A stretch of 61,833 nucleotides of DNA from the NCBI GenBank assembly GCA_946403625.1, contig CAMJAP010000005.1, forward strand, positions 1-61,833, read 5' to 3'. The notes under the pieces are model-generated. The model searched no databases. It had not been told where the DNA came from and was given only the letters and a program-made list of their open reading frames with translations. A program made the translations under genes and the position numbers. This stretch comes from an uncultured Lachnospiraceae bacterium (GTDB lineage Bacteria; Bacillota; Clostridia; Lachnospirales; Lachnospiraceae). Positions 57,035 to 61,369 of this stretch are shown here, in pieces (positions within the stretch are counted from its first letter, which is position 1; each line of letters opens with the position of its first letter).

Positions 57035-59032
57035 TTATAAAGCCTGCCGTCCCGGGGCAACTGCAAACGGTCCCGGCATTGCCGATACCCCTCTGTGGTT
57101 GCCGAAATAATCGATGTCAAAGGTGATGGCACTGCCGTCCGGGCTTTCAAAACGCTGCTCCGGCTCGAAGGCGCATCCCAGGGTATCACTGGTAATGATA
57201 CCGTTCGTAAAATCTTTCAAGTATTTGTACAGATCGGTCTTGAGCGTATACTTGCCGTTTTTCTCCACCAGCTCTACGCTCACCGTATCCTTCTTGTTGA
57301 CCAGTTTCTTCTTTTCATGCTTGCAGACATTTGCACCGTTGAAGTAGGCATTGCCTTCCACCCATACCGGCAGATGTCCGAAATGCGCCGTTGCCAGGCC
57401 GCCCATATCCGGCAGCTCGCCTTCGTCAAAGGGCTTTCTCCATTCCTCGTAGGTCGGGAAGATATCAAACGCCTTGGTACCGACTTCCATATAGTCCGCA
57501 TCCTTCGGCGTTTTCTTCTTGTCTTCCACTTCGTATTTCTGTACGAAGATATTGTTGTAGATGCGATCGTCTCCGTGCAGGATGGTCATAAAGCCTGCCA
57601 CCTCGGTACGATGACGGATGTGGTACGGTGTGTATCTCGGCTCTCTCTGTCCGTTGATGATGCTGTCCACACCGGAATTGATCAGGGAGAATCCGCCCAG
57701 GATCAGGTTGTTCACCACGGCGATGCCCTCACTCGGGATCGTGATCGCCACCTTGGAAAGCAGGATGTTGTTGTCGATCAGGGTCGGTCCGTGTCCTACT
57801 TCCACAAATACGTCCGTGTTGAACATACTGCCGTTGCCGCCGAGCACACCCTTCGGACGATGATTGTCGTGCATCAGGTTCTGCGATACCCGCGCGCCCT
57901 GTGCTTCCCAATCCAGCCATACACCCATGATGCAGTTGTGGATATGGTTGCGACGAATGGTCACATCGATGGCCGCATGCAGTTTGATGCCGGCGGTCTC
58001 GGCTCCGCCCAGCTGGGAAGAGTTGCAGATGTGATGGATGTGGCAGTCCTCGATCGTGGAGAACACACCGCCCATACGGCCTACGATACCGGTCTGCTCG
58101 CAATGATGCACATGGCAGCGGCGGATGATGTGGCTGCCGATGCGTTCTTTGGTCCAGCCGTGATACTGTCCGCGGCAAACCGCATCGCGCTCCATCTGGG
58201 TCGGACTCTTCACTCGCTTTTCGGTGAAGTACATATCATTTTCGGGATCCATATATTTGCCCAGGGAAATACCGCAGCAGCGGCTGCCGTAGATCTCGCA
58301 GTCCTCGATGATCCAGCCTTTTGCCCAGTGCGGTCCGATCATACCGTCCTGATAAGCGGCCGGCGGTGCCCATGTCGTTGCCGCCTTGCAGATGGTAAAT
58401 CCGCTCACGGTGATATAATCGACAAAGTTTTTCTCCGGCATAAAGCAGTTGCGACGCACGCTGATCTCGACATTTTCCTTGTTCGGATCCAGCCCGCGGA
58501 AATTGGCATAGAGCACCGTCTCGTTGGTTTCCGCATCCTGCTCCGTATACCATTTGTATTTTGACGCATCCGCATCCCAGGCATGTTCGTCCGCCGGCGC
58601 CTTCATACATTCTTCCAGCGTCGCCGTCTCATACATCGCGTTATCGTTCAAAAAGACGCAGCCGGTATGGCGTACCTTCGGTGCAAAATACCAGTCGCCG
58701 TAAACATAGGTGGTATAGGGATGGTAGGAGCCGAATACGGAATTGTCCACACGCACCGTCCAGACATTTCCCTTATATTTCTTCCAGCCCTTCATCTCCT
58801 CGGCACCCGTGATCACCGCACCCAGGGGCACTTCCGAACGATAACGGATCGGCGCCTCCTTCGTTCCGGCATTCTTCGGGCAGACATACTCGCGGTAGAT
58901 GCCCGGAGCCACAACGATCTCATCGCCGGCAGCAGCGATCTTTGCCGCTTCGTTGATGCGCTTGAACGGACTTTCCTTGCTTCCGTTTCCGTCATGGTCT
59001 GCGTTTGCGTTAACATAATAGATCTTTGACAT
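57035..59032 (-). CDS. GH120-like beta-xylosidase
   Basis: A 665-residue right-handed beta-helix enzyme. It resembles GH120 xylosidases such as that of Thermoanaerobacterium in DPNKENVEISVRRNCF, WIIEDCEIYGSRCCGISLGK and GVWLDWEAQG ... DVFVEVGHGPTLIDNNIL. From that family, the nucleophile corresponds to Asp373 (LDWEAQG) and the acid/base to Glu411 (VFVEVGHGP). Between them is an insert (HRPKGVLGGNGSMFN) that I do not recall in the type enzyme. No signal peptide, so it should act on imported xylo-oligosaccharides. ATG 59032 with AGGGGG. Its promoter overlaps the clpP-like terminator, and dus follows without gap. Confidence 0.82.
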   Translation of the reverse strand: MSKIYYVNANADHDGNGSKESPFKRINEAAKIAAAGDEIVVAPGIYREYVCPKNAGTKEAPIRYRSEVPLGAVITGAEEMKGWKKYKGNVWTVRVDNSVFGSYHPYTTYVYGDWYFAPKVRHTGCVFLNDNAMYETATLEECMKAPADEHAWDADASKYKWYTEQDAETNETVLYANFRGLDPNKENVEISVRRNCFMPEKNFVDYITVSGFTICKAATTWAPPAAYQDGMIGPHWAKGWIIEDCEIYGSRCCGISLGKYMDPENDMYFTEKRVKSPTQMERDAVCRGQYHGWTKERIGSHIIRRCHVHHCEQTGIVGRMGGVFSTIEDCHIHHICNSSQLGGAETAGIKLHAAIDVTIRRNHIHNCIMGVWLDWEAQGARVSQNLMHDNHRPKGVLGGNGSMFNTDVFVEVGHGPTLIDNNILLSKVAITIPSEGIAVVNNLILGGFSLINSGVDSIINGQREPRYTPYHIRHRTEVAGFMTILHGDDRIYNNIFVQKYEVEDKKKTPKDADYMEVGTKAFDIFPTYEEWRKPFDEGELPDMGGLATAHFGHLPVWVEGNAYFNGANVCKHEKKKLVNKKDTVSVELVEKNGKYTLKTDLYKYLKDFTNGIITSDTLGCAFEPEQRFESPDGSAITFDIDYFGNHRGVSAMPGPFAVAPGRQAL

Positions 59033-59063
59033 AAATGGATCCCCCTTATCGATACATTTTTAC

Positions 59064-59102
59064 AAAACCCTTCTGATCATAAATTTTACTAGATCAGAAG
59101 GG
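59064..59102 (-). terminator. Terminator of the VirD4-ClpP pair
   Basis: CCCTTCTGATC (59068-59078) pairs with GATCAGAAGGG (59092-59102), 11-bp stem, loop of 13, minus-strand tail TTTTGTAAAAA. It also contains the -10 region of the GH120 promoter in its loop. Confidence 0.85.
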
Positions 59103-59111
59103 CTTTGACAA
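59083..59111 (-). promoter_or_regulatory. Promoter of the GH120 gene inside a terminator
   Basis: On the minus strand TTGTCA (59106-59111), 17 nt, TAAAAT (59083-59088). The -10 sits in the terminator loop and the spacer covers one stem arm, so read-through and initiation are physically linked. Confidence 0.6.
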
Positions 59112-59135: not shown

Positions 59136-59714
59136 TCAGATTTTGTCGATGATCGCCGTCGCGATACCAAAATCCAATGCTTCCTGCGCTGTCAGGAAGG
59201 TATCTTCTTTGGTCTTTTCATAGACCTCTTCGATGCTGCGACCGCTGCGTTCCGCAATGATGCTGCCGGTCACTTCACGTGTCTCCAGCAATCGCGCAGC
59301 TTCCTTTTCCAGTTCCAGTGCCTTGCGGCTGCCGGAAAGGCCCGCGATCAGCGGATCGTGGATCATGATCTTGGTGTGGGGCAGCATCTCGCGCTTGTCC
59401 CCGGCCAGGAACAGGATGGATCCCATACTGGCAGCCGTGCCGATGCAGACGGTGCGGATCGGGCATTTCATCAGACGCAGCGTGTCATATGCCGCCAGAC
59501 CGCTCGCCACTTCCCCGCCCGGGGTGTTGATATAGAGTGTGATCTCGGCGTCCGGATCTTCCGACTCCAGGCACAGAAGATACTGGATCAGTGCGTTGCA
59601 GCTCTCGGAATTCACCTCTTCGGTAAAGAAGAGCTTGCGCTCCTTTAAGAGCAGACTCTCTGCGGTGATGCTGTCGATACCTCTGGATGTTTCTTTCAAA
59701 AAGTAAGCGTTCAT
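59136..59714 (-). CDS. ClpP-family serine protease (paralogue)
   Basis: A 192-residue ClpP-like peptidase. The catalytic triad is complete: Ser96 (GTAASMGS), His119 (IMIHDP) and Asp171 (KTKEDTFLTAQEAL). YINTPGGEVASGLAAYDTL is the substrate-groove strand. It is shorter than housekeeping ClpP at the N-terminus but keeps the TSRGIDSITAESLLLKERKLFF axial region. It has no ClpX or ClpC next door; instead the upstream gene, 23 nt away, is a VirD4/TraG-like ATPase. ATG 59714 with GGAGA upstream. Function is unknown; it may degrade substrates delivered by that ATPase. Confidence 0.9.
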   Translation of the reverse strand: MNAYFLKETSRGIDSITAESLLLKERKLFFTEEVNSESCNALIQYLLCLESEDPDAEITLYINTPGGEVASGLAAYDTLRLMKCPIRTVCIGTAASMGSILFLAGDKREMLPHTKIMIHDPLIAGLSGSRKALELEKEAARLLETREVTGSIIAERSGRSIEEVYEKTKEDTFLTAQEALDFGIATAIIDKI

Positions 59715-59737
59715 ATCTTCGTTCTCCTTTCTTTCTC

Positions 59738-61144
59738 TTAAGATGCCTGCGCCTGTACCGGTTCCTCTTCCAGGTACTCCGGCGCGTATGGCTCCACCTT
59801 TTCCACTTGTTTGGGCCGGCTGCCGCGTTCAAAGAACCAGGCCGAATCCAAGGGCAGTTCCAGGATCGACTCCGGCAGTTTTCCGGACTTGGTCGCGAAG
59901 TAGTGCGCCGTCTCCACATCCACGCCGCCCAGATAGAGCATATGGTCACAGTTGTTGATGATGGTCTGCGCCTGCCCTTCCTTGTACATCCCGTTCAACT
60001 GCGAGATGCTCTGCAGGATCACCGTCGCGTAGATCTCGCGGGAGCGGATGTTTGAGATGATCTTGTCAAAATCCGGAATGCAGACGTTTGACGCAAAATC
60101 ATCCAGGATGATGCGCACCGGCACCGCCAGTCGGCCGTCTTCCCTGTCATCTGCTTCCTTACACAGACTCTTAAACATCTGCGTGTAGAAGAGATTGACC
60201 AGCGGATCCATCGAGCGGTCAGTGTCGCTGATGTTGACAAAGAGTACGGTCTTCTGTCGTCCCAGTTCCGGGAAGAACAACGTGCTCCTGCGGTTGAACA
60301 GATTGGCATTGGCACTGTATTCAAAGGGTGCCAGCGCATTTGCCACAAACTGCGTGATCGAAGACCAGCACTTCTCTGCCTTGAAATTGCAGCTGTACTT
60401 GTGGTACATGCGCACGGCAAAACTGTCGGGATTTTCCGCTTCCAGCTCGGTGAAGAAGCTCACCCCCGGCCAGCCGCGTTCCTGGCCGTTTCGGGATGCC
60501 TGATCCGCCAGTTCGTCATAGAGGCGGCAGACCGAACCCATATGCTGCTCCGATTCCGGCAGCATCTCCAGGCAGTATGCCATCAGGCTGACCAGCACAG
60601 TGCGGGCGGAGTCTCCCCAGAAGGAGCTGTCTTTGTCCACGTTGTCCGGGACCAGGATCTTGCAGATGCTCATCAGATCCTCTTCGCGATAATGAAATTT
60701 CTTTTCCACGTTCTCTCCGAAGAACGTATCGCACGTCACCTCTTCCCAGCTGCGCTCCACATAATCCATCGGATTATAGGAAGCGGACTGTTCCGGGCGG
60801 ACAAAGTTGATGTTTTCCACGCGGAAACCCATCCTGCGAAGGCGCGCCGCATGCACCTTAAAGAGCTGGCTCTTGGCATCGACCACCACCAGGCTGTGGC
60901 GCAGGTCCCTCAGATTCGGAACCACGTATCCGCCGGTCTTTCCGGATCCTGCGGAACCGACCAGCAGGTCATTGTTGTTGAGCCTGGTCGCACGGGCATT
61001 GTTGGAAACCGTAACCCCCTTTGCAAAGATGCGGCTGCCCAGATCCTCGTGCTTTACTGCCGTGACTGCGTTACTCTTACGATTGTTCATGGCGGTCATC
61101 TCCTTTCTGCCATCTGCTGCGTTTGTCAGGTTTTTTCTCTTCAT
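59738..61144 (-). CDS. Soluble VirD4/TraG-like ATPase
   Basis: A 468-residue ATPase of the type IV coupling-protein superfamily, which pumps DNA or protein. Walker A is GSAGSGKT at 63-70 (NNNDLLVGSAGSGKTGGYVVPNL), Walker B ILDDFAS near 346-352, with TVILQSISQLNGMY and HYFATKSGKLPESILEL as later family motifs. It lacks the two N-terminal membrane helices of true coupling proteins, so it should be cytosolic. ATG 61144 has GGAGGAGG; Met19 also has GGAGA upstream. No relaxase, mating-pore or integrase genes are in the window, and the next gene is clpP-like, so a conjugation role looks doubtful. Confidence 0.85.
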   Translation of the reverse strand: MKRKNLTNAADGRKEMTAMNNRKSNAVTAVKHEDLGSRIFAKGVTVSNNARATRLNNNDLLVGSAGSGKTGGYVVPNLRDLRHSLVVVDAKSQLFKVHAARLRRMGFRVENINFVRPEQSASYNPMDYVERSWEEVTCDTFFGENVEKKFHYREEDLMSICKILVPDNVDKDSSFWGDSARTVLVSLMAYCLEMLPESEQHMGSVCRLYDELADQASRNGQERGWPGVSFFTELEAENPDSFAVRMYHKYSCNFKAEKCWSSITQFVANALAPFEYSANANLFNRRSTLFFPELGRQKTVLFVNISDTDRSMDPLVNLFYTQMFKSLCKEADDREDGRLAVPVRIILDDFASNVCIPDFDKIISNIRSREIYATVILQSISQLNGMYKEGQAQTIINNCDHMLYLGGVDVETAHYFATKSGKLPESILELPLDSAWFFERGSRPKQVEKVEPYAPEYLEEEPVQAQAS

Positions 61145-61369
61145 AACTTTTGTCCTCCTCCTTCTATGCTGCTATCTTAACACTGCCTTTTTTGTATCCG
61201 TAGAAACTACGGAACTGCCTTATGCAAAAGGCGACAATACCCTCTGCAAAGGACTGCATTCTTCGTACCCTTTGCATGCAACTTCGGATCCGCTATGTGA
61301 CTGATATTGGATTTTCTTCTAAGAAATACCGGCGACCGTTCCTGCGATACCGGCGGAAACGGTGACAAC
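61145..61369. other. Upstream region of the VirD4-ClpP operon
   Basis: Gene-free. It holds the 6-bp inverted repeat CCGTAG-aaa-CTACGG (61198-61212) about 55 nt ahead of the VirD4-like ATG, and the related words ATGCAAAAGG, CTGCAAAGG and CCTTTGCATGC between 61220 and 61280. A clear -35/-10 pair is not obvious. The inverted repeat is a candidate operator. Confidence 0.4.

Follow-up and report, generated by a model that had tools for sequence, protein, structure and literature searches.

In conjugation, coupling proteins of the VirD4/TraG/TrwB type form hexamers through which protein-DNA substrates reach a membrane channel, and in DUF4297-HerA layers of nuclease are stacked on a HerA hexamer. 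To our knowledge, every ATP-driven partner described so far for ClpP, for HslV or for the 20S proteasome is an AAA+ protein. The present analysis concerns two adjacent genes from an uncultured Lachnospiraceae bacterium, one encoding a soluble VirD4/TrwB-like ATPase and the other a ClpP-family serine protease; the window is the whole of contig C5 (61,833 bases) in an assembly of 3.5 Mb in 195 contigs, 99% complete. The two genes are kept together in many Clostridia, and their products depart from both parent families in ways that suggest a single ATP-driven machine.

With the CD1115 family of VirD4/TraG/TrwB proteins (NF045973), the ATPase has the coupling-protein fold in common, but it is anchorless, carries Asp-Asp instead of Asp-Glu in Walker B, falls in a separate clade and lies beside ClpP, with no relaxase or VirB4 match near. 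In the same manner, the protease has the ClpP domain and the Ser-His-Asp triad in common with the ClpP of ClpXP, ClpAP and ClpCP, whereas the paired ClpPs mostly lack Arg192, an aromatic residue at position 82, the Gln of the QXT motif and the sensor Arg170, have an acidic residue and not Gln after the catalytic His, and adjoin a motor of the VirD4/TrwB fold, not an AAA+ protein. Compared with HerA-SIR2 and DUF4297-HerA, the putative effector is a protease, the motor belongs to the VirD4 branch, and small proteins of two families, here called A and B, are often added. The VMAP and MoxR-vWA conflict systems (PMC7159879) are a further point of reference, in that weakly MoxR-like AAA and DUF2201 vWA genes adjoin some pairs (L055); such clusters occur at few pair loci, and a term search of the main text of PMC7159879 returned no ClpP, Clp protease or VirD4. 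No description of an ATPase-ClpP pair was found in the open-access literature. By these comparisons the pair qualifies neither as a coupling protein, in view of its anchor, Walker B and gene company, nor as a canonical Clp subunit, in view of its docking and ring-ring residues; it may be an ATP-driven machine for protein destruction of a kind not described before.

Conservation and joint evolution of the two genes

The window ATPase matches Pfam T4SS-DNA_transf (E 2.1e-41) and NCBIfam conju_CD1115 (NF045973; 271.9 bits, cut-off 250). An AlphaFold2 model of the monomer, with a predicted local distance difference test score (pLDDT) of 91.8, has Cagbeta and TrwB-deltaN70 as its nearest folds and predicts a RecA core with an all-alpha domain, as in type IV secretion coupling proteins; it can be aligned only from the equivalent of TrwB residue 105 onwards. 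The initial annotation had described this protein as keeping Walker A and B and as having lost the membrane anchor, and both statements hold, K69/T70 and D348/D349 being present and a simple hydropathy scan revealing no membrane segment in the window ATPase (top 19-residue mean 1.24). For the proteins as called, a 19-residue hydropathy of 1.6 or more was reached by 3 of 60 short ATPases over their whole length, as opposed to 24 of 29 conjugation-type VirD4 proteins over the first 150 starts. The second acid of Walker B is Asp in all 95 short ATPases and Glu in all 29 conjugation-type VirD4s, and the tree places the former (including four without ClpP, the L079 row with its in-frame stop being left out) on one side of a branch with a Shimodaira-Hasegawa-like approximate likelihood ratio test (SH-aLRT) value of 98. 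Because the conjugation-type set holds proteins as short as 470 (L084) and 498 amino acids (L047), length alone does not split the two groups, whereas Walker B does. The conserved Asp-Asp may tune hydrolysis in the short ATPases.

In the first two surveys, which covered 60 relatives and 397 genomes of the family, 58 matching loci were compared. ClpP lay beside the ATPase in 27 of them, all 27 ATPase open frames having at most 519 codons, and five short ATPases had no visible ClpP, namely L022 and L023 (contig ends), L033, L034 (one stop) and L036 (in pieces). When 18 aligned short ATPases were then used to scan the 84,980-species GTDB collection, 445 relatives were confirmed and the best 80 kept; the scan leans to the Asp-Asp form, one of its patterns including the DDFA motif itself. 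These best 80 are Clostridia by title or are described merely as uncultured Firmicutes or bacteria, and the nearest ATPase among them, at 80% identity, comes from a metagenome-assembled genome of a sheep-rumen Lachnospiraceae. Some loci share a genome (L099/L100, L116/L118, L174/L177), and several of the 80 are the same genomes as those with G handles. According to the simple open reading frame (ORF) caller used for all neighbourhoods, ClpP stands beside the ATPase on the same strand in 75 of the 80 loci, and in 12 loci the two genes overlap by 4 nucleotides. The arrangement with the ATPase upstream, as described initially, is true of the window but is the exception overall: ClpP comes first in 74 of the 75 paired loci and second in one (L098, the window's sister). 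Inverted yet still adjacent genes are found in the window and in L098, L059, L062, L079 and L096.

A further check, in which a profile of 60 ATPases was run against 391 genomes at class level and 398 at phylum level, led to 56 fetched loci. Ten contain ClpP, and these are exactly the ten short ATPases with an Asp-Asp Walker B; the other 46 are conjugation-type VirD4 loci, none with ClpP, in which Walker B is Asp-Glu (42) or no motif was found (4). As far as is known, seven of the ten paired loci were new to the analysis; these lie in six genomes, and three of the seven belong to another class of the phylum. Within the window's genus, at least 11 of 35 genomes have one or more pairs. The doubt raised at the outset, that the two genes might be neighbours in this genome only, is thereby dispelled by 75 of the best 80 loci and by all ten short ATPases of the 56-locus set. 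A second, divergent pair was seen in the window's own genome (L042 2755-12900, G000:C58; ATPase 33% and ClpP 41% identity), its two genes being separated by one for a glycosyl hydrolase 26 and preceded by others that encode an SH3-domain protein, DnaK (Hsp70), GrpE and a protein kinase. L055 2413-19185 holds two pairs within one locus.

The window ClpP matches Pfam CLP_protease (PF00574, E 9.4e-52) and stays under the cut-off of all 13 NCBIfam families matched (TIGR00493: 159 against 308.6). Its Ser96/His119/Asp171 triad, reported from the start as full, is correctly assigned and invariant across 31 aligned ClpPs. In the ClpP tree, from which L099, L055 and L056 were left out beforehand, a single branch (SH-aLRT 99) separates the 87 paired ClpPs from 26 lone ones; none of the latter lies within 21 kb of an ATPase match of the first survey, their flanks not having been inspected individually. 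Using E. coli numbering, fixed by aligning the triad, the catalytic residues of the paired ClpPs are retained (S97 and H122 in 87 of 87, D171 in 86). Position 82, which we take to line the motor-docking site along with Tyr62 and Leu114, is Phe or Tyr in 1 of 87 paired as against 24 of 26 lone ClpPs. Arg192, whose replacement by Lys in E. coli ClpP abolishes ClpX binding according to PMC7112951, is present in 1 of 87 paired and 19 of 26 lone ClpPs, a count that hangs on ragged C-termini; the window ClpP has Ile there. The QXT motif and the oligomerisation sensor stabilise the heptamer-heptamer contact, as stated in PMC9035409, from whose Neisseria numbering the positions were transferred. Q131 of the QXT motif is found in none of the paired and all 26 lone ClpPs, Asp or Glu at sensor position 169 in 4 of 87 against 26 of 26, and sensor R170 in 2 of 87 against 26 of 26. 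Residue 123, which follows the catalytic His, is Asp or Glu in all 87 paired ClpPs and Gln in all 26 lone ones. The surfaces for the AAA+ motor and for the twin ring are therefore both altered, and the active site is not. Divergence alone does not explain these changes, since a divergent lone ClpP in the window's genome (L044 250-816, G000:C112; 34% identity) keeps Q123, Q131 and R170.

Pairwise distances in the ATPase and ClpP trees agree with a Mantel r of 0.83, the top of 2000 permutations being 0.23, and 35 splits are common to both trees (of 84 and 83), as opposed to 0.18 on average after shuffling. The pair is an accessory unit. In genome G017 (L227 3514-4300), the last 27 codons of ClpP abut an upstream gene in EamA-side DNA, the ATPase and the rest of ClpP being gone; set beside the sister locus L049, this genome lacks about 2.5 kb with the ATPase and most of ClpP, which is consistent with one deletion.

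The proposed machine and its alternatives

The locus had been introduced as a two-gene module, and the pair is indeed conserved; the unit, however, often holds further small proteins. A (about 100-135 amino acids), B (about 100-175 amino acids) or an A-B fusion adjoins the pair in at least 34 of the 80 loci by sequence search, and profile comparison adds L117 (probability 91) and L121 (71), for a total of about 36. The same method links the N-terminal half of the fusion with A (probability 93.5) and the C-terminal half with B (96.9). A and B are situated mostly upstream of ClpP, in L127 and L143 between ClpP and the ATPase, and no recognisable A or B occurs at the window's own locus. A and B are fast-evolving and helical; one modelled fusion is all-helical (pLDDT 88.4) with no match in the PDB, and the members tried belong to no family in Pfam, NCBIfam or PHROG. 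At L156 (7211-9200), an A-B fusion gene immediately precedes the ATPase and no ClpP was detected at the locus.

We lean slightly towards one ATP-driven machine, possibly defensive, in which a motor of the FtsK-HerA superfamily, not an AAA+ protein, feeds a dedicated ClpP ring. The motor would descend from a Firmicutes coupling protein of the VirD4 type that has shed its membrane anchor, presumably hexameric like its relatives, and the ClpP ring would stand in for the membrane channel, which is the simplest reading because there is no anchor and a ClpP ring is encoded alongside. Proteins would be unfolded or drawn into the proteolytic chamber, perhaps away from DNA; the choice of substrate would fall to A and B, acting as adaptors or sensors. 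We infer the complex itself, the direction of transport, protein and not DNA as cargo, the adaptor role of A and B, and a probable part in defence or stress. A fuller version, to which we would give not quite an even chance, is a non-AAA+ compartmental protease in which a coupling-type motor has left the membrane and sits on a rewired ClpP ring, together with two new adaptor families. The system, accessory and widespread in Clostridia, might strip proteins from invading DNA or destroy them there. If correct, a second motor superfamily would drive a ClpP ring, a new solution to regulated protein destruction; it would show how coupling proteins, movers of both DNA and proteins, can be reused, and HerA-type motors would gain a protease among their effectors. 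Gut and rumen Clostridia commonly carry the pair, and it is directly testable. Some automatic labels of the kind 'VirD4-like conjugal transfer protein' or 'ClpP' may thus denote neither conjugative nor housekeeping proteins, the window ATPase itself passing the VirD4 cut-off.

Several observations weigh against such a machine. The agreement of the two trees is inflated by shared host history. Five of the 80 ATPases have no ClpP in view (L122, L145, L150, L156 and L169, the last at a contig end), and a short ATPase from the window's genus (L067) has none within 9.0 kb on one side or in the 3.7 kb that remain before the contig ends on the other. As the ClpP C-termini align loosely, any Arg in the C-terminal tail was also counted, and 21 of the 87 paired ClpPs have one, as do 21 of the 26 lone ones; furthermore, the docking-site positions are partly unchanged in paired ClpPs (Tyr62 in 54 and Leu114 in 74 of 87). 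The paired ClpPs may be single rings or may need a partner, and the ATPase, with Asp where the catalytic Glu would be, could be slow or switch-like and not a processive unfoldase. The predicted structures are of monomers. The initial annotation had offered an unfoldase-protease, a defence system or a DNA-processing machine; its non-conjugative and anchorless pair stood the comparison, its gene order and gene number turned out not to be the typical ones, and the joint function is still conjectural. Of the three, the first, with or without the second, is favoured by the changes at the docking and ring-ring positions of ClpP.

The defence reading, which overlaps with that of a motor-driven protease, is appreciable although rather unlikely by itself: a HerA-type anti-phage motor would track or sense foreign DNA, its cargo being DNA, and the ClpP ring would be an effector triggered by assembly and lead to abortive infection, in likeness to DUF4297-HerA. 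By fold and linkage, a motor of the FtsK-HerA superfamily is indeed encoded with a candidate effector, ClpP as effector being the conjectural part. Against this, PADLOC gives the ATPase a weak mad8 match only (4e-6) and ClpP none, and there is no match of the pair to catalogued defence proteins beyond it. In a neighbour scan, 139 proteins were picked from 588 (one per cluster, nearest first) and, among the best 25 of 124 Pfam families, belong mostly to metabolic or general families with one protein each, so the neighbourhoods are no clear defence islands. A helicase cluster is present in 12 of 91 loci, and the single member that was tested gives scores with the DpdF and PsyrT models; helicase and defence matches are not callable as enriched, there being no control neighbour set. 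By contrast, it is decidedly improbable that the two are separate enzymes, co-regulated without a complex. Their contact is inferred, which leaves room for that view, but inverted gene orders still keep the pair adjacent, both partners form dedicated clades, and ClpP is changed at its known motor-docking and ring-ring positions.

Still less probable is a left-over or domesticated conjugation gene, with the ATPase serving integrative elements in trans and ClpP trimming relaxase or mating proteins. The ATPase exceeds the curated cut-off of the conjugative CD1115 family, and most of its best plasmid matches, among the matches listed, bear the CD1115 VirD4 name; it has, on the other side, no anchor and a fixed Walker B difference. 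The claim that nothing conjugative surrounds the pair is borne out on the window contig, where neither the relaxase families PF03432 and PF03389 nor the VirB4 family NF045971 gave a match. Nor is the pair confined to conjugative elements, since of 25 pair-bearing genomes 18 are without PF03432, 15 without PF03432 and PF03389, and 13 without these and NF045971. The pair-bearing contigs of these genomes show no match to the three families apart from one relaxase 93 kb off (G034), Rep-type relaxases not having been searched and many contigs being short, and the conjugation-type VirD4 loci never carry ClpP in the fetched flanks of about 1.5 kb. A phage head-maturation protease beside a packaging ATPase in a degenerate prophage is hardly credible. 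ClpP does score with phage head-maturation PHROGs (4e-44), but it is better scored by the general ClpP domain, a single weak PHROG match (0.0043) was obtained for the ATPase, whose fold is VirD4/TrwB, the top-ranked phage record shows 32% identity (best 15 of 30, mostly unannotated), and no capsid or portal family was found for the 139 neighbours within the best 25 Pfam families.

The window locus and neighbouring genes

The features of the window locus are compiled in the table. The 23-nucleotide gap agrees with the ORF coordinates, both ATGs are preceded by Shine-Dalgarno (SD)-like sequences, and the common terminator reported earlier corresponds to a hairpin of -26 kcal/mol (z -6.7, matched by 0 of 200 shuffles). 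This hairpin is not on the list of a simple terminator scan (2 sites against 3.3 expected) because the scan permits loops of 3-8 only. An in-frame ATG at codon 19 of the ATPase is also preceded by an SD-like AAGGAG, and the true protein may therefore have about 450 amino acids.

Table. Features of the ATPase-ClpP locus in the window.
Feature	Position	Strand	Basis
Soluble VirD4/TrwB-like RecA-type ATPase, 468 amino acids	59738-61144	minus	ORF, Pfam, NCBIfam, AlphaFold2
Dedicated ClpP-family serine protease, 192 amino acids, triad Ser96/His119/Asp171	59136-59714	minus	ORF, Pfam, clade
SD-like AAGGAGGAGG, 5' of ATPase ATG	61154-61163	minus	sequence
SD-like AAGGAGA, 5' of ClpP ATG	59723-59729	minus	sequence
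Intergenic gap of 23 nucleotides, ATPase/ClpP	59715-59737	minus	ORF coordinates
Terminator-like hairpin 3' of ClpP, common to both genes	59063-59107	minus	fold

Upstream of the pair only a truncated EamA gene is visible, since the window is the whole contig. On the other side, a gene for a GH120-like beta-helix glycosidase (57035-59032) separates the pair from a Dus gene, which the pair adjoins directly in the sister locus L049.

Other neighbours differ from locus to locus. Larger unannotated proteins recur beside the ATPase, namely those of cluster c3 (367-454 amino acids) and of clusters c16, c19, c44 and c91 (370-575 amino acids), at L101, L102, L114, L119, L108, L110, L145, L150, L122 and L126; the c3 and c16 examples tried gave no match in Pfam or NCBIfam. 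In L055 and L054, a weakly MoxR-like AAA gene (c12), c20 and a DUF2201 metallopeptidase/vWA gene (c19) lie near the pair, followed by c5 and unannotated c34/c35 or c40/c41 genes, an arrangement that resembles conflict-system modules. Another cluster, c81, adjoins the pair in L061 (10417-12804) and L136 (1336-3183), and its L061 member has Clp/Hsp100-like AAA domains.
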